Source of the DNA: Thomasclavelia cocleata | GTDB lineage: Bacteria > Bacillota_I > Bacilli_A > Erysipelotrichales > Coprobacillaceae | DNA: 42,286 nt | Assembly (NCBI RefSeq): GCF_900102365.1 | Contig: NZ_FOIN01000022.1 | Coordinates: forward strand, 1-42,286 | Direction of reading: 5' to 3' | In this document: in pieces, positions 9,451 to 38,710 of the stretch | How positions within the stretch are numbered: the stretch's first letter is position 1 | How the letters are laid out: the number at the start of each line of letters is the position of its first letter | Program-made: the position numbers and the translations under genes | Notes under the pieces: model-generated | What the model was told of the DNA's origin: nothing | Database searches by the model: none | The model's input: the letters and a program-made list of their open reading frames with translations, nothing else

Positions 9451-9526
9451 GGAGGTTTAGCTCAGTTGGGAGAGCATCTGCCTTACAAGCAGAGGGTCAG
9501 CGGTTCGAGTCCGTTAACCTCCACCA
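9451..9526 (+). tRNA. tRNA-Val (anticodon TAC)
   Basis: 76-nt cloverleaf with encoded CCA. Acceptor GGAGGTT / AACCTCC, anticodon loop CTTACAA, T loop GGTTCGAGTCC. First of seven tandem tRNAs. Confidence 0.97.
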
Positions 9527-9540
9527 TTAAAAATAAATAT

Positions 9541-9616
<76 letters not shown>

Positions 9617-9620
9617 TGAT

Positions 9621-9703
9621 GGAGGAGTAGCGAAGTGGCTAAACGCGGCTGACTGTAACTCAGTTCCTTTGGTTCGGTGGTTCGAATCCGCCCTCCTCCA
9701 CCA
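9621..9703 (+). tRNA. tRNA-Tyr (anticodon GTA)
   Basis: 83-nt class II tRNA with a long variable arm, acceptor GGAGGAG / CTCCTCC, anticodon loop CTGTAAC, encoded CCA. Confidence 0.96.
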
Positions 9704-9711
9704 GCTATTAT

Positions 9712-9787
9712 TGGGGTATAGCCAAGCGGTAAGGCAACAGACTTTGACTCTGTCATCTCCCTGGTTCGAATCCAGGTACCCCAGCCA
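9712..9787 (+). tRNA. tRNA-Gln (anticodon TTG)
   Basis: 76-nt cloverleaf starting TGGGGTA, anticodon loop CTTTGAC, encoded CCA after ACCCCAG. Confidence 0.96.
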
Positions 9788-9797
9788 AATATATAAC

Positions 9798-9873
9798 GAC
9801 CCGCTAGCTCAGCCGGTAGAGCATCTGACTTTTAATCAGAGGGTCAGGCGTTCGAATCGCCTGCGGGTCACCA
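9798..9873 (+). tRNA. tRNA-Lys (anticodon TTT)
   Basis: 76-nt cloverleaf, acceptor GACCCGC / GCGGGTC, anticodon loop CTTTTAA, encoded CCA. Confidence 0.97.
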
Positions 9874-9890
9874 TTTTCAAGAAAATATTT

Positions 9891-9979
9891 GCCCAGGTGG
9901 CGAAACTGGTAGACGCACAGGACTTAAAATCCTGCGGACCTTAAAATCCGTGCCGGTTCGATTCCGGCCCTGGGCACCA
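9891..9979 (+). tRNA. tRNA-Leu (anticodon TAA)
   Basis: 89-nt class II tRNA with a long variable arm, acceptor GCCCAGG / CCTGGGC, anticodon TAA, encoded CCA. Confidence 0.96.
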
Positions 9980-9984
9980 TTTTC

Positions 9985-10058
9985 GCGGGTGTAGTTCAAT
10001 GGTAGAACTTCAGCCTTCCAAGCTGACTACGTGGGTTCGATTCCCATCACCCGCTCCA
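9985..10058 (+). tRNA. tRNA-Gly (anticodon TCC), copy 1
   Basis: 74-nt cloverleaf, acceptor GCGGGTG / CACCCGC, anticodon loop CTTCCAA, encoded CCA. Identical to the copy at 14505-14578 that opens the second array. Confidence 0.97.
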
Positions 10059-14504: not shown

Positions 14505-14578
14505 GCGGGTGTAGTTCAATGGTAGAACTTCAGCCTTCCAAGCTGACTACGTGGGTTCGATTCCCATCACCCGCTCCA
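14505..14578 (+). tRNA. tRNA-Gly (anticodon TCC), copy 2
   Basis: Identical over 74 nt to the copy at 9985-10058; the identity continues for two T after the CCA and then stops. First gene of the second array. Confidence 0.97.
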
Positions 14579-14580
14579 TT

Positions 14581-14656
14581 GCTTGAATAGCTCAGTTGGT
14601 AGAGCAATCGGCTGTTAACCGATCGGTCGTAGGTTCGAGTCCTACTTCAAGCGCCA
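14581..14656 (+). tRNA. tRNA-Asn (anticodon GTT)
   Basis: 76-nt cloverleaf, acceptor GCTTGAA / TTCAAGC, anticodon loop CTGTTAA, encoded CCA. Confidence 0.97.
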
Positions 14657-14657
14657 T

Positions 14658-14733
14658 GGCCTGTTGGAGAAACGGTTAACTCACATGCCTTTCACGCATG
14701 CATTCACGGGTTCGAATCCCGTACAGGTCACCA
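14658..14733 (+). tRNA. tRNA-Glu (anticodon TTC)
   Basis: 76-nt cloverleaf starting one base after the preceding tRNA, acceptor GGCCTGT / ACAGGTC, anticodon loop CTTTCAC, encoded CCA. Confidence 0.96.
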
Positions 14734-24478: not shown

Positions 24479-24831
24479 GGGGGTGTCCTGGGTTCGACAG
24501 GTATATGTCTGACCTTAGCTGCAGTCGAAGGCATTCGTTAAATGCACAAATAAATAACTGGAAACAGACAAACTAATTACGCTTTCGCTTAGTCGACATA
24601 GACATGAAAGCTGCCACTATTTAGTGTGCCTATAACTAGATAACTGGTATCATAAATTTATAGGATAAGAGTATCTAAAGCTTAGGTAGGTATTACGAAA
24701 ATTTTATAAGCTCGTTAGGTGGAAAATTGCTCATTGATTGTAGCCTAATTAAATTAGTTCAATGAGATAAACTGTAGACGCTTTGGAGGGATTATGCTTG
24801 GACAGGGGTTCGATTCCCCTCACCTCCACCA
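24479..24831 (+). ncRNA. ssrA: Transfer-messenger RNA (tmRNA)
   Basis: 353 nt. The ends form the tRNA-like acceptor GGGGGTG / CACCTCC plus A-CCA, with T arm GGGTTCGATTCCCC at the 3' end. The tag frame probably resumes at GGA (24560) after AATAACT and reads GNRQTNYAFA, ending at TAG (24590-24592). The NYAFA ending resembles mycoplasma tags rather than the ALAA of Bacillus. It rescues stalled ribosomes with SmpB, encoded just upstream. Confidence 0.96.
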
Positions 24832-33550: not shown

Positions 33551-33588
33551 TAATAAAAAAGTAAGAATTAAATAGTAATTCTTACTTT
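33551..33588 (-). terminator. Terminator of corA (minus strand)
   Basis: Perfect 13-bp arms AAAGTAAGAATTA / TAATTCTTACTTT (33558-33570, 33576-33588), loop AATAG, then TTTTTTATTA on the minus strand. It overlaps the corA stop codon and may also slow plus-strand transcripts. Confidence 0.85.
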
Positions 33589-34537
33589 AATGAAACATAT
33601 CTTTTTTTATAAAAATTATTGTTGCAATAATACAAGCAATAACTGCCACTAGGGTCGGAAACCACCAATGAGCAATTGGTAGGCCTGTTACATTCATTCC
33701 ATAAAAACTAAATATAATATTAGGAATAGCCATTACAATAGTAATCACTGTTAATACTTTCATAACAATATTTAAGTTATTAGAAATTACTGAAGCAAAA
33801 GCATCCATTGTTCCAGAAAGAATATTTGAGTAAATATTACACATTTCAATAGCCTGATGTATTTCTATTAATACATCTTCTAATAAATCCTGGTCTTCAT
33901 CATATAGTTTTATTATTTTACCACGCATGATTTTATTTAAAGTAATTTCATCAGTTTTTAGTGAAGTAGAAAAATATACTAATGATTTTTCTAAACCTAG
34001 CATTTGAATTAGTTCTTTATTTTGCATTGATTTATGCAAGGTTTGTTCTGTACGTGATGAAATTCGGTCTATTTGACGTAAGTAAATTAAATAACGTTGG
34101 GAAATTCTAAGGAGTAAAAGTAATAAAAATCTAGTTTTTAAATTAGTATTTATTCCTTTAACTCGACCTTGACGCATATCATCTATATTTAAGTTTTCAT
34201 ACAAAGAAATTGTTACAACATAACCTTTCATAATAATAATACCTAGTGGTAAAGTAGTATATTGAAGCATATTTTTATCATAACCTTGAGCATTTTCTTC
34301 TTCGGCACTAGGATAGTCAATGATTACAAGCCTTTGATTATAGTCTTCATCATAATCAATATGTGAACTTTCTTCAGCATCTAAAGATGATTTTATAAAT
34401 TCTGGTAAAACACCAATCTTTTCGATTAAAAAATTTTTTTCTTCTTCATTTGGAGCAACTACATTAATCCAGCTTCCTGATTCTGGTTCATCAATTTTTT
34501 TTGTTATTGATCCATAAGTTTTATAAAATTCTAACAT
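33587..34537 (-). CDS. corA: CorA-type magnesium/divalent cation channel
   Basis: 316 residues: a long cytoplasmic N-terminal domain with helices forming the funnel, then two membrane helices near the C-terminus with the ion-selective loop YGMNVTGLP (GMN) between them. This is the CorA fold; Mg2+ uptake is the usual role, though some relatives carry Co2+ or Zn2+. The start at 34537 has GGAGG 5 bases upstream; the frame reaches 34549 but that ATG lies before the site. A leader of about 110 nt with competing hairpins precedes it. Confidence 0.93.
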   Translation of the reverse strand: MLEFYKTYGSITKKIDEPESGSWINVVAPNEEEKNFLIEKIGVLPEFIKSSLDAEESSHIDYDEDYNQRLVIIDYPSAEEENAQGYDKNMLQYTTLPLGIIIMKGYVVTISLYENLNIDDMRQGRVKGINTNLKTRFLLLLLLRISQRYLIYLRQIDRISSRTEQTLHKSMQNKELIQMLGLEKSLVYFSTSLKTDEITLNKIMRGKIIKLYDEDQDLLEDVLIEIHQAIEMCNIYSNILSGTMDAFASVISNNLNIVMKVLTVITIVMAIPNIIFSFYGMNVTGLPIAHWWFPTLVAVIACIIATIIFIKKDMFH

Positions 34538-34648
34538 CTTAGCCTCCATCTCAGGAGACTAATTTATTATGTCTCCTGCATTTTTATTATTTAATTGTTT
34601 GATATAAACCTGCTCGGGCTCAGGGGACATAACAACACCTTCTTTCAA
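34538..34648 (-). promoter_or_regulatory. Candidate regulatory leader RNA of corA
   Basis: Read on the minus strand, three segments compete. S1 ATGTCCCCTG (34630-34621) can pair with S2 CAGGAGACAT (34578-34569), 9 of 10. S2 can pair with S3 GTCTCCTG (34559-34552), 8 of 8. CTCC of S3 can pair with the GGAG of the ribosome binding site (34547-34544). A short CCTG..CAGG hairpin follows S1. It does not match the M-box core known to me. A translation switch responding to an ion is inferred. Confidence 0.45.
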
Positions 34649-34654
34649 GCACAA

Positions 34655-34683
34655 ATTATATCACAGAATAAAGAAGTTTTCTA
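34655..34683 (-). promoter_or_regulatory. Promoter of corA
   Basis: On the minus strand TAGAAA, 17-bp spacer, perfect TATAAT (34660-34655) with extended TG. Start near 34648, giving the about 110-nt leader. Confidence 0.65.
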
Positions 34684-34784
34684 AAAAATAGTATAATTTT
34701 TATTAAATATATTAAAATTACTAAATAAAAAAGAAGAATTTCAATATAGATTAATAATTATTACACTGAATTTCCACTAATTTA

Positions 34785-34793
34785 TGATAAAAT
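34785..34793 (+). promoter_or_regulatory. Extended -10 element before the MoxR gene
   Basis: TGATAAAAT (TG-n-TAAAAT), 35 bases before the start codon; the 16-mer TAATTTATGATAAAAT around it is repeated before the CotH gene. No good -35. Confidence 0.4.
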
Positions 34794-34828
34794 TGAAGTA
34801 TCAAGAAGTAGTAGGGGGAAGAAAAAAT

Positions 34829-35761
34829 ATGAATGATAAATTAGATTTATTAATAAATGAAGTAAAAAAAGCAGTATTGGGTAAGGATGATGTAATCAAA
34901 AGAACGATTGTTGCTATTCTTGCTGAAGGTCATATTTTATTTGAAGATATTCCTGGGGTAGGTAAAACAAATTTAGCAGTAGCATTTACAAAAGCATTAT
35001 CATTAAATTATCAACGAGTACAATTAACATCTGATATTTTACCTAGTGATTTATTAGGATATTCAGTTTATGATTTTGATAGTAAAAAAATGAGTTTTAA
35101 AAAAGGGCCTGTTTTTACTAATATCTTTTTAGCTGATGAAATAAATCGTACATCAAGTAAAACTCAGTCTGCTTTATTACAAGTAATGGAAGAAGGTATT
35201 ATTAGTGTGGATGGAAATACTTATCCCACTAGTAAACCATTTATAGTAATAGCTACACAAAATCCTTTTGGTAGTGCAGGAACTCAGATGTTACCAGATT
35301 CACAATTAGACCGGTTTATGATGCGGTTATCATTAGGATATCCTGATGAGGTTAGTGAAATTGAAATTATAAATCGTAAAAAGAATAGTAATCCCCTAGA
35401 TAATATTGAAGCTGTTATAACACCAGAAGAATTGGTTTTGATGCAAAAAGAAATTAAAAGTGTTCATATTGATGAAAGTTTAGTTCGTTATATAGTTCAA
35501 GTAGTCCAACAAACTCGAAAACATGAAAAAATTGAACAAGGGGCATCACCTCGAGCTTCAATAGCTTTGACAAAAGCTTCTCAAGCAACAGCTTATTTGT
35601 ATGGACGTGACTATGTTGTTATTGAGGATATAAATGAAAATCTTTATGAAGTGCTTAATCACCGAATCTTCTTAATTCCTAGTATTAAAAAAAATCGTAA
35701 AAGTTTTCAAATCATAATGGAAGAAATTATGATGCGAATTACACCTGTTACATATAAATAG
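34829..35761 (+). CDS. MoxR-family AAA+ ATPase
   Basis: 310 residues. Walker A GVGKT (43-47), Walker B FLADEINR (100-107), sensor 1 ATQNPFGSAGT, the arginine-finger region QLDRFMMRL, and a lid domain with GASPRASIALTKASQA. MoxR ATPases act as chaperones that assemble or activate partner protein complexes. The ATG at 34829 fits AGGGGGA and the conserved N-terminus; the frame from 34784 adds non-family residues. First gene of the MoxR-DUF58-transglutaminase set, a combination found in many bacteria. Confidence 0.95.
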   Translation: MNDKLDLLINEVKKAVLGKDDVIKRTIVAILAEGHILFEDIPGVGKTNLAVAFTKALSLNYQRVQLTSDILPSDLLGYSVYDFDSKKMSFKKGPVFTNIFLADEINRTSSKTQSALLQVMEEGIISVDGNTYPTSKPFIVIATQNPFGSAGTQMLPDSQLDRFMMRLSLGYPDEVSEIEIINRKKNSNPLDNIEAVITPEELVLMQKEIKSVHIDESLVRYIVQVVQQTRKHEKIEQGASPRASIALTKASQATAYLYGRDYVVIEDINENLYEVLNHRIFLIPSIKKNRKSFQIIMEEIMMRITPVTYK

Positions 35762-35762
35762 T

Positions 35763-36671
35763 ATGTGGCGATGTCGTTTAGTATATTTATTATTAATTGG
35801 ATTTGGTGTGTTTTTCTATATTGCTTTTATTGGTTATTTTTCTTATTATTTTTTATTAGTTATATTAGTTTTACCAATTGTTTCTTTCATTTATTTATTA
35901 TTGACTTGGAAGTTTTTGAAACTAGAATTTGTTGTAGATGATAAAAAAGTAAGACAAAATGAATTAGTAAGTATTTTTGTAAAACGGGATAAGTTTGGTT
36001 TAGGGGCTATTAAGTTCAAGATAGATAATAAAAAGTATCTTTTAAGGGGAAATCAAGATAAATTTGATATTTCGTTTAAACATTGTGGTGGTGAAAATTT
36101 AATTATTAAGGACTATTATCAATATGATAGTTTAAATCTATTTTGTTTGAAGAAACGTTGTTATTATCAAATTCCAATAACAATTTATCCAAAAAAGATT
36201 GATTTTGACTTTAGTGTATATCAACATTTACTTCCTAAAGATGGTGAAGAAGTTTATGCGATAAATCAAAAAGGTGATGATCCAACAGAAATATATGATA
36301 TTCATAAATATCGAGAAGGAGATTTACTAAAAAATATTCATTGGAAATTAAGTGCAAAATATGACGATGTGTTAGTAAAGGATAATGCATTATCTGTAAG
36401 TGAAATAATAAATATTCACTGTGATTTTGATGAAGATGATGATCATAATGATTTAGTCTTTAGTTATTTAGAGGTATTTTGTATTAAGTTATTAGAAAAT
36501 AAGTATAAGTTTTTGTTATCAAATAAAGAAATTACTAGTATTAAAGAATATGAAGATCAGTTTAAATATTTATTATGGAATAAAGATTATTATCCCGATG
36601 TAACTAAACATAATTATGAATTTATTATTAGTTATTATGGGATAAAAAGGATTGAAGGTGGTCACCGATGA
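35763..36671 (+). CDS. DUF58 membrane protein
   Basis: 302 residues: two N-terminal membrane helices (about 8-47), a beta-rich middle, and the DUF58 signature YDIHKYREGDLLKNIHWKLS near residue 180. Such proteins are the usual partners of MoxR ATPases; some carry a von Willebrand-like fold. Only one base separates it from moxR, and it overlaps the transglutaminase gene by 4 bases (ATGA). No clear ribosome binding site precedes it, so translation is probably coupled to moxR. Confidence 0.88.
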   Translation: MWRCRLVYLLLIGFGVFFYIAFIGYFSYYFLLVILVLPIVSFIYLLLTWKFLKLEFVVDDKKVRQNELVSIFVKRDKFGLGAIKFKIDNKKYLLRGNQDKFDISFKHCGGENLIIKDYYQYDSLNLFCLKKRCYYQIPITIYPKKIDFDFSVYQHLLPKDGEEVYAINQKGDDPTEIYDIHKYREGDLLKNIHWKLSAKYDDVLVKDNALSVSEIINIHCDFDEDDDHNDLVFSYLEVFCIKLLENKYKFLLSNKEITSIKEYEDQFKYLLWNKDYYPDVTKHNYEFIISYYGIKRIEGGHR

Positions 36672-38710
36672 AACTGTTAATTTATTTATTAGGTATTATT
36701 GGTTCAACTGGTTCTTTAATATACTCATTTGATTTTAATAGTAATCCTAATTTAATTTTCTTTTTCTGCGTTATGATTGGACTAGTTATTTATTTAGGAT
36801 ATACCAATACAAAAAATAAGCGACAGTTTATAATTGGGGGATTAGTAATAGATGGAATCTTATTAATGCTTCCTAATACTCTTGCATGTTTTTCGTATTT
36901 GGTTTCAACTGTCGTACATAAATATAATGATGTTTCGGTTTATAATTTTGGTTATGAAAGTATGTTGGATTTTTTTGATAAATCTTTTGTATGTACTTGT
37001 ACATTTTTATTATTGTTTATTCCAATGTATATATTGGCCTGTGTAGCAATAGAAAAGAATAAATATGGTTTAGGAATCATTGCTCTATTACCTGGAGTAT
37101 TTATAGAGTTATTATTTACTATTACTCCACCATGGTATTTTATTGGCAGTTTTGTATTATATTTTTTAGTTCTTTTGATTGTATCAATGCAAAAAGGGAA
37201 AAATGTAAAGATTCCAATAATTGGAATTTGTCTAGTATCAATGTTTTTTACATATCTGGTCTTTGGAATTGAGACATACCGTTTATCTTCAATAAGTTTG
37301 TTTAATCGTTCTAAGTTACCACTTGCTACAGCAGGAAATGTTAAAGAGAATTATAATGTAAATAAACAAGGGGATCGTTATTATCGAAATTCAGTTGACT
37401 TTATTATTGATGGAGCTAATGAACTGACAAACTTTAAGATGCGGGGAATTGGTTATGATAAATATGATAATGGTAATTGGAGTGTTATTGAAGATGATCA
37501 GAAATATATTTATTGGGTATATCGTAATTTGAACATTCTTGCTGATATTACTAAAGCTAAAAAACAGACTATTACAGTTGAACAGTTAAGTGGTTATAGT
37601 TATCGAAATTATACGCCTTATTATTTCACTAATACTGATTTAACATATTATGGTAATTATTTTATGGGTGAAAATCCTCAAAATTTTGAAATGATTATAC
37701 CTAATGATGATTTTAATTCTTTGTTTGCAAGTGTAAAAGCTGATGAAAAAAAAGAAATCTTATTAGAAATTGGAAAAAGAAATGGAACAGAGGATAGTTT
37801 TAAAGAATTACAAACTCGTTTTTATGATAATGATGGGATTCTAACAAGTGTATCAGATGAAGATAGCAAGATCATTGATCAATTTTTATTGCAAAATAAT
37901 ATTGTTTATAATGGTGATGTTTATGATTTGATTAATCAATGTAAAAATGCTTTGGCTAAGCAAACTAGTTATACTTTAAGACCAGGTGATTTACCAGATG
38001 ATGAAAATTATTTGAATTATTTTCTTAATGTTAATAAAAAAGGATATTGTGTACATTATGCATCATCACTAGCATTGATGTTAAGAAGAAATGGTATCGC
38101 ATCACGTTTTGTATTAGGATATCAAGCTAATGATAGCAAGAATAAAAAAGGACAATTAATTATTAGAGATCGAAATGAACATGCCTGGATTGAAATATTT
38201 GATGAGTATTTGGGATGGATTCCAATTGAAGCAATTGGAAATGGTGTAAGAAATGAAGATAGCACAGTACCTGTTAATCCTATTAATTCAGATAATAATA
38301 ACCAGACAACTCCAATAATACCAGAAGTTAGTGAAAGAAATGTAATTGAAAATGAAAATGAAAATAGTTCTAAAATTGAAATACCATTTTATGGATATAT
38401 TATAGGAACAATTATAATTGGCGGAATTATTTTTATCTTACAAGCAGTTATTCGTAAAAAAAGAATGTTTATAAATGCTAAAACAAATAATCAGTTAGTT
38501 TGTTATTATTATCATTATTTAAATAAATTAAATGGAGATACTTCTAAAATCAAATCTCTTGCAGATAAAGCTCGGTTTTCAACTCATGATATAACAGATG
38601 AAGAACTTAAAAGAGTCACTGATTATTATGATGAACAAATTAAAATCATCTATCATAAAGCAGGTATTTTTAAGAAAATATATTTTAAGTTTATTTTAGC
38701 TTATATATAA
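36668..38710 (+). CDS. Membrane protein with extracytoplasmic transglutaminase-like domain
   Basis: 680 residues: about six N-terminal membrane helices (to about residue 205), an external region, a transglutaminase-like papain-fold core, one more membrane helix (about 575-595) and a cytoplasmic tail. The core has Cys461 (KGYCVHYASS) and His505 (RNEHAWIEIF). The third triad position after GWIPI is Glu521 instead of the usual Asp (GWxPxD). It is the third member of the MoxR-DUF58-transglutaminase set; activity could be protease, cross-linking or only binding. The substrate is unknown. Confidence 0.9.
   Translation: MKLLIYLLGIIGSTGSLIYSFDFNSNPNLIFFFCVMIGLVIYLGYTNTKNKRQFIIGGLVIDGILLMLPNTLACFSYLVSTVVHKYNDVSVYNFGYESMLDFFDKSFVCTCTFLLLFIPMYILACVAIEKNKYGLGIIALLPGVFIELLFTITPPWYFIGSFVLYFLVLLIVSMQKGKNVKIPIIGICLVSMFFTYLVFGIETYRLSSISLFNRSKLPLATAGNVKENYNVNKQGDRYYRNSVDFIIDGANELTNFKMRGIGYDKYDNGNWSVIEDDQKYIYWVYRNLNILADITKAKKQTITVEQLSGYSYRNYTPYYFTNTDLTYYGNYFMGENPQNFEMIIPNDDFNSLFASVKADEKKEILLEIGKRNGTEDSFKELQTRFYDNDGILTSVSDEDSKIIDQFLLQNNIVYNGDVYDLINQCKNALAKQTSYTLRPGDLPDDENYLNYFLNVNKKGYCVHYASSLALMLRRNGIASRFVLGYQANDSKNKKGQLIIRDRNEHAWIEIFDEYLGWIPIEAIGNGVRNEDSTVPVNPINSDNNNQTTPIIPEVSERNVIENENENSSKIEIPFYGYIIGTIIIGGIIFILQAVIRKKRMFINAKTNNQLVCYYYHYLNKLNGDTSKIKSLADKARFSTHDITDEELKRVTDYYDEQIKIIYHKAGIFKKIYFKFILAYI

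Follow-up and report, generated by a model that had tools for sequence, protein, structure and literature searches.

Upstream of corA, the gene for a CorA-type Mg2+ channel in Thomasclavelia cocleata, lies a leader whose segments can pair in several ways, and the locus raises the question of whether the channel gene is controlled through this leader and, if so, by what kind of sensor. The analysis started from a stretch of 42,286 nucleotides (hereafter the window), and the features discussed are listed in Table 1. A PF01544 profile search of the genome found corA as the sole CorA gene. Judged from the sequence, its start is most likely the ATG at 34537 rather than the start of the longer ORF, which the ORF finder places further upstream, at 34549; the CorA proteins of relatives begin at the same place, with MLEF or MIEF. 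Beside corA and divergent from it, the region 34784-38710 (plus strand) carries MoxR-type ATPase, DUF58-like and transglutaminase-like genes, named by eye from their translations only.

Table 1. Features of the corA locus, in coordinates of the window
Feature	Position	Strand	Remarks
corA, CorA-type Mg2+ channel	33587..34537	minus	PF01544, 157 bits; start most likely ATG 34537-34535
corA Shine-Dalgarno (SD), GGAGG	34547-34543	minus	
S4, GGAGGCTA, corA SD and 3' flank	34540..34547	minus	Pairs 8/8 with 34561-34554; helix 3:4 covaries
S3, GTCTCCTG, anti-SD	34559-34552	minus	First base is the last of the uORF stop codon; pairs with S2
S3, register for S4	34561-34554 (S3 overall 34552..34561)	minus	Two bases upstream; pairs with S4
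S2, CAGGAGACAT	34578-34569	minus	3' part of uORF; partner is S1 or S3
uORF, 23 codons and TAG, MSPEPEQVYIKQLNNKNAGDIIN	34559..34630	minus	TAG at 34561-34559; six N-terminal residues conserved with synonymous third-position changes, 29 loci
uORF codons 3-6, Pro-Glu-Pro-Glu	34613..34624	minus	Putative ribosome-destabilising stretch; resembles MgtL EPDP (PMC11282234)
S1, ATGTCCCCTG	34630-34621	minus	Opening ten bases of uORF, begins with ATG; pairs with S2
uORF SD, AGGTG	34636..34640	minus	GGTG invariant in 29 leaders
Extended -10 promoter element, TGATATAAT	34655..34663	minus	10/12 consensus matches, with TG
-35-like TAGAAA	34683-34678	minus	

Pairing segments of the corA leader

Segments S1, S2 and S3 and the corA SD lie on the minus strand, where an earlier note on this DNA had located them, and its claim of three mutually exclusive helices was borne out both by these positions and by covariation. 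In the T. cocleata leader, S1 pairs with S2 at nine of ten positions (one C-A mismatch), S2 with S3 at 8/8, and S3, read at 34561-34554, with S4 at 8/8. The minimum free energy fold combines helices 1:2 and 3:4 (-31.6 kcal/mol, z = -2.6), and one of 200 shuffled sequences folded as well.

The comparison was extended to 29 leaders, nearly all from Erysipelotrichales. When segments were chosen by best complementarity, the number of paired positions in 28 of the 29 was 8-9 out of 10 for S1:S2, 7-8 out of 8 for S2:S3 and 6-8 out of 8 for S3:S4; pair counts taken from alignments are a fairer test than such segment picking. In an alignment made from sequence only, 82.8% of the cells of helix 2:3 were paired, against 43-53% when the segments were slid, and five pairs had changed on both sides. 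For helix 3:4 the proportion was 91.8%, in a model-fitted alignment which leans towards structure, with five both-side changes, some of them outside the SD word. The covariation score exceeded all of 500 shuffles for each of these two helices. Helix 1:2 was paired in 86.5% of the cells (36-52% when slid), and its variation was small and its covariation weak; it is near-invariant because S1 sits on the start of the uORF. Its clearest compensations were found in leaders L014 and L017, in which Leu replaces Pro at codon 3 and S2 is altered in step. The covariation check suggested for this leader, run across 28-29 relatives, thus gave covarying helices 2:3 and 3:4 and a near-invariant 1:2 with few compensated pairs.

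Complementarity of this kind could also arise by chance between SD-like words, with no regulation attached to it. S2 and S4 are both SD-like, which makes some complementarity cheap. The explanation is nevertheless hardly credible, being contradicted already by the covariation outside the SD word, where the compensated pairs include TAG:CTA, TAT:ATA, TTG:CAA and CGTT:AACG, by the shuffle controls and by the amino-acid selection in the uORF described below. As judged from the aligned sequences, two predicted helices that exclude each other, 2:3 and 3:4, are each backed by compensation. Conserved, mutually exclusive helices of which one masks the SD are the arrangement expected of a translational attenuator, and the leader would be one with four segments, in which 1:2 and 3:4 together represent the OFF state and 2:3 the ON state. 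The earlier proposal of a translational switch acting on the corA ribosome binding site is likewise supported by the helices and their covariation.

An acidic reading frame in the leader

What the earlier note had missed, while seeing the helices, is a short upstream reading frame (uORF) of which S1 is the start and at whose end S3 lies. The uORF is conserved at the 29 loci, and its six leading residues mostly read M-S-P-[ED]-P-[ED]. Variants such as MAPEPE, MTPEPEP, MSPDP, MSSDP, MSASPDP, MSLDSDG and MSLDADG keep the acidic character. Among the departures from PEPE, L012, with PVPE, and the proline-free L014 and L017, with SLDAD/SLDSD, count against the peptide-sensor reading given below. An acidic N-terminus with proline, encoded by a uORF before a Mg2+ transporter gene, is one feature expected of leaders of the MgtL/MgtQ type, and it was found here as MSPEPE before corA, with conservation at 29 loci.

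Selection on residues 1 to 6 is seen when the codons are compared. Within codons 3-5, the fraction of locus pairs that differ is 0.61-0.73 at third positions and 0-0.14 at first and second positions, whereas from codon 7 onward all three positions differ about equally. These sequence patterns point to amino-acid selection on codons 2-6 only, with peptide selection ending at residue 6. The conservation of codons 4 and 5 is not explicable by a helix, because they are almost wholly outside S1. The middle of the uORF varies among leaders in sequence and length. Since the selection on codons 2-6 acts on amino acids, the ribosome that synthesises this peptide is the likelier sensor.

The same locus had been read as a possible undescribed ion-binding riboswitch controlling translation, and helices that exclude one another at the SD of a gene for a metal channel do fit such a reading. 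In 27/29 leaders, the distance from the end of a TGnTATAAT-type extended -10 element to the start of the uORF is 24-31 nt; by the usual promoter spacing, the transcript of T. cocleata would start about 18 nt upstream of the uORF. Because this conserved element stands so near the uORF, an aptamer would not fit into the predicted transcript. In the Rfam search the leader matched none of the families and gave no useful match. The M-box model RF00380 had no match at its gathering score in the window, nor at E values up to 10 in 34480-34790, in agreement with the remark that the M-box core is not recognisable. The conserved element consists of the uORF and four short segments, that is, a peptide and short stems around a variable uORF middle, so that the idea of a ligand-binding, ion-responsive RNA found no support. 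A riboswitch with an aptamer was rejected for want of an Rfam match and of space upstream of the uORF, and the ion-binding reading as a whole appears very improbable.

A terminator-like site was sought in the leader and none was found. A search of the genome for second copies of the leader returned, besides corA, chance matches only, the best of which precedes a ptsI-like gene. The Rfam search of the window also located a tmRNA gene at 24479-24831 and two tRNA clusters at 9451-10055 and 14505-14730, all on the plus strand.

Ribosome position and the proposed switch

A ribosome was modelled as 30 masked nucleotides, and the accessibility of the corA SD was computed for 29 leaders. Mean access was 0.06 in the free RNA, 0.39 with codons 2-7 in the P site and 0.08 from codon 8 to the end (Wilcoxon 4e-9 and 4e-7, values which are optimistic for related sequences). 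The zone of modelled opening coincides with the acidic and proline codons. When the sequence from codon 8 to the SD was shuffled, mean access became 0.37 in the free RNA, 0.49 with the ribosome at codon 4 and 0.37 at codon 13; since shuffling abolishes masking (0.37 vs 0.06), the predicted masking depends on the sequence of this region. Behaviour expected of an attenuator, in which an early ribosome opens the SD while free RNA and later positions leave it closed, was predicted as the mean of the 29 leaders and not in every leader. About a third of the leaders showed little or no modelled opening, and in T. cocleata access with an early ribosome rose to 0.10 only. In the model, the SD opens as well when a ribosome at the stop codon of the uORF covers S3.

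Taken together, these features make it probable, at about 0.68, that the leader of corA acts as a translational attenuator operated by ribosomes, with the leader peptide (MSPEPE...) as the sensor, like Salmonella MgtL/MgtQ. Transcription would begin about 18 nt upstream of the uORF. As long as the uORF is free of ribosomes or is traversed by them, 1:2 and 3:4 would form and the corA SD would be masked (OFF). At low Mg2+, ribosomes making Pro-Glu-Pro-Glu would pause and drop off, codons 1-7 would be kept occupied by paused or newly initiating ribosomes, and S2 would be left free. S2 would then pair with S3, S4 would be released and CorA would be made (ON). We infer here that the uORF is translated, that PEPE destabilises the ribosome at low Mg2+ in these bacteria, and that the leader responds to Mg2+ with this polarity. 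Ribosome destabilisation of this kind has been established for enterobacteria and, to our knowledge, not for these Firmicutes. The polarity proposed earlier, with 2:3 open and 1:2 masked, agrees with this model; the choice between the two states would be made by a ribosome.

The same uORF and helices could also work with the opposite polarity. In this case, ribosomes that finish the uORF would open 3:4 on reaching the stop codon and pass on to corA by translational coupling, and aborted translation would lower corA expression. The SD is modelled as open in most leaders when a ribosome stands at the stop codon, and many leaders have 3-10 nt between the end of the uORF and the SD. A terminating ribosome so near the SD should, however, hinder 30S binding, and the translation of E. 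coli corL is inverse to that of corA (PMC11552253). Coupling would moreover need neither the conserved 2:3 helix nor 1:2, and it would make a Mg2+ importer go down at low Mg2+. In four Clostridia, in addition, the uORF extends in a different frame across the start of corA. Coupling is therefore an unlikely account of the leader.

The logic of the attenuator proposed here, with 1:2/3:4 against 2:3 deciding on an SD according to ribosome position, is that of the erm-type leader-peptide attenuators, which differ in that the ribosome is stalled by an antibiotic, whereas nascent-peptide destabilisation at low Mg2+ is proposed for corA. Among the Mg2+ transporter leaders, that of mgtQ before mgtB in Salmonella is similar in having a short acidic uORF with region 1 inside it and a translational output, its 2:3 stem sequestering an anti-RBS and thereby opening the ribosome binding site of mgtB (PMC8092293). 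Unlike the corA leader, mgtQ has 8 codons, lies within an operon and lacks PEPE, and mgtB encodes a P-type ATPase in another phylum. On MgtL, before mgtA in E. coli and Salmonella, ribosomes drop off at EPDP at low Mg2+; the effect is due to acidic residues close to the N-terminus that are neighbours or separated by one position, and it is counteracted by EttA (PMC11282234). The MgtL leader shares with that of corA the N-terminal alternation of acidic residues and proline (EPDP vs PEPE), the Mg2+ transporter gene downstream and the two alternative structures, but its output is Rho-dependent transcription termination rather than SD masking. CorL precedes corA itself in E. coli and Salmonella and likewise has two leader conformations; in contrast to the present uORF it contains few acidic or proline residues, and its control is Rho-mediated in a long leader with a three-way junction, against about 110 nt here (PMC11552253). 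The M-box (ykoK, RF00380) also responds to Mg2+ upstream of Mg2+ transporter genes, as the corA leader would; its aptamer is absent in T. cocleata. The present leader thus joins features of MgtL, mgtQ and corL: PEPE lies on S1, 2:3 would act as an antisequestor, and the masked SD is that of a gene for a Mg2+ channel. By analogy, it probably works like MgtL/MgtQ, and the six-residue motif is too short to tell homology from convergence with mgtL, mgtQ or corL.

Distribution of the leader and nature of the signal

A covariance model of the leader was searched over 315 genomes of the order, only matches with E <= 1e-6 being counted, and the leader was found in 42 genomes. Twelve loci read individually have it directly before corA, and the coordinates put corA directly downstream in the remainder. 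The leader-bearing genomes are exactly those with a CorA at least 70% identical to that of T. cocleata (42/42), one corA being split over two contigs with 66 and 82% identity. Weaker matches in the order and the phylum (E 1e-5 to 0.05) were rejected, those inspected lying in or near unrelated genes. The more diverged corA genes of the order gave no match to the covariance model. The diverged leaders L040, L123 and L125, missed by model R2, were found by reading, and L123 and L125 carry acidic uORFs (MKEDPYSHDFF and MFPDPEYRS).

Similar uORFs precede corA in many Clostridia. Relatives of Candidatus Pararuminococcus (probably Oscillospirales) carry MTADPSG, MNPDPYS, MSPDPSRSRR, VKPDPLC, MKADPCGHSC and others, and more distant Clostridia carry MDDPDADL, MDSDPGS and MDGDPGS. 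By a strict rule (an SD plus [DE]P in residues 2-7), an acidic/proline uORF was found before 20/57 clostridial corA genes, probably a lower bound as the automatic corA-start finder misplaced several clostridial starts, compared with 14/1140 shuffles and 2/52 other genes. A strict nucleotide pattern searched in 299 Clostridia was uninformative, its SD spacing being fixed at 6 bases vs 5 in T. cocleata. In L160, L162 and L182, candidate helices 2:3 and 3:4 are visible by eye with unrelated sequences.

In the four Clostridia mentioned above (L161, L164, L165 and L181), the uORF (VKPDPLC... or VNPDPYG...) crosses the SD and start of corA in another frame, without an RNA switch. This would be a simpler design, in which finishing the uORF should block corA, and it fits completion being the OFF state.

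An M-box lies upstream of corA in eight clostridial loci (L187, L190, L195, L200, L204, L207, L208 and L214, at about 1110-1364 in corA orientation). By reading, a clear acidic uORF stands between M-box and corA in five of the eight (L190, L195, L200, L204 and L214) and a weaker one in the near-identical L207 and L208; these frames start MDDP..., MDSG... or MDSD.... The M-box before the uORF-corA unit ties the uORF to Mg2+, and the two elements are possibly two Mg2+ sensors in series.

These loci also bear on whether the same attenuator might answer to another signal instead of Mg2+, for instance the charging of proline-tRNA, EF-P or the activity of EttA/ABC-F. Two Pro codons are conserved in the uORF, proline and EF-P affect the Salmonella mgt leaders (PMC6460261, PMC8092293), and EttA acts on acidic N-termini, that of MgtL included (PMC11282234). 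Against this, L014 and L017 replace the prolines and retain acidity, many clostridial uORFs starting MDDP or MDSD are acidic with one proline or none, the downstream gene is a Mg2+ channel, and the uORF stands behind M-boxes in some genomes. Such another signal has a small chance of being the right one, and Mg2+ is the preferred signal.

We lean slightly towards a wider view in which acidic/proline leader peptides are ribosome-based Mg2+ sensors and a widespread means of corA control in Firmicutes, from Erysipelotrichales to Clostridia, with at least two output designs (the SD attenuator and the uORF over the corA start). In some Clostridia they would follow an M-box, giving a single gene an RNA-based and a ribosome-based Mg2+ sensor in series. 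A literature search, with subscription journals and preprints largely beyond its coverage, turned up no account of a corA leader of this kind from Firmicutes. What would be new here is that gut Firmicutes apply MgtL/MgtQ logic to corA, using another peptide and acting on translation. If the proposal is correct, Mg2+ sensing by ribosome destabilisation would be a general bacterial strategy and not an enterobacterial peculiarity, and corA, often termed constitutive, would gain a regulator in these bacteria. Through the leader, the destabilisation of Gram-positive ribosomes by acidic N-termini at low Mg2+ becomes directly testable, as does the combination of M-box and uORF in series.

In one other genus of Bacilli (L234, L235 and L236), a GTG-started frame, MEDSIPIRTIK, with a strong SD and an acidic N-terminus lies upstream of corA and is possibly a leader peptide.
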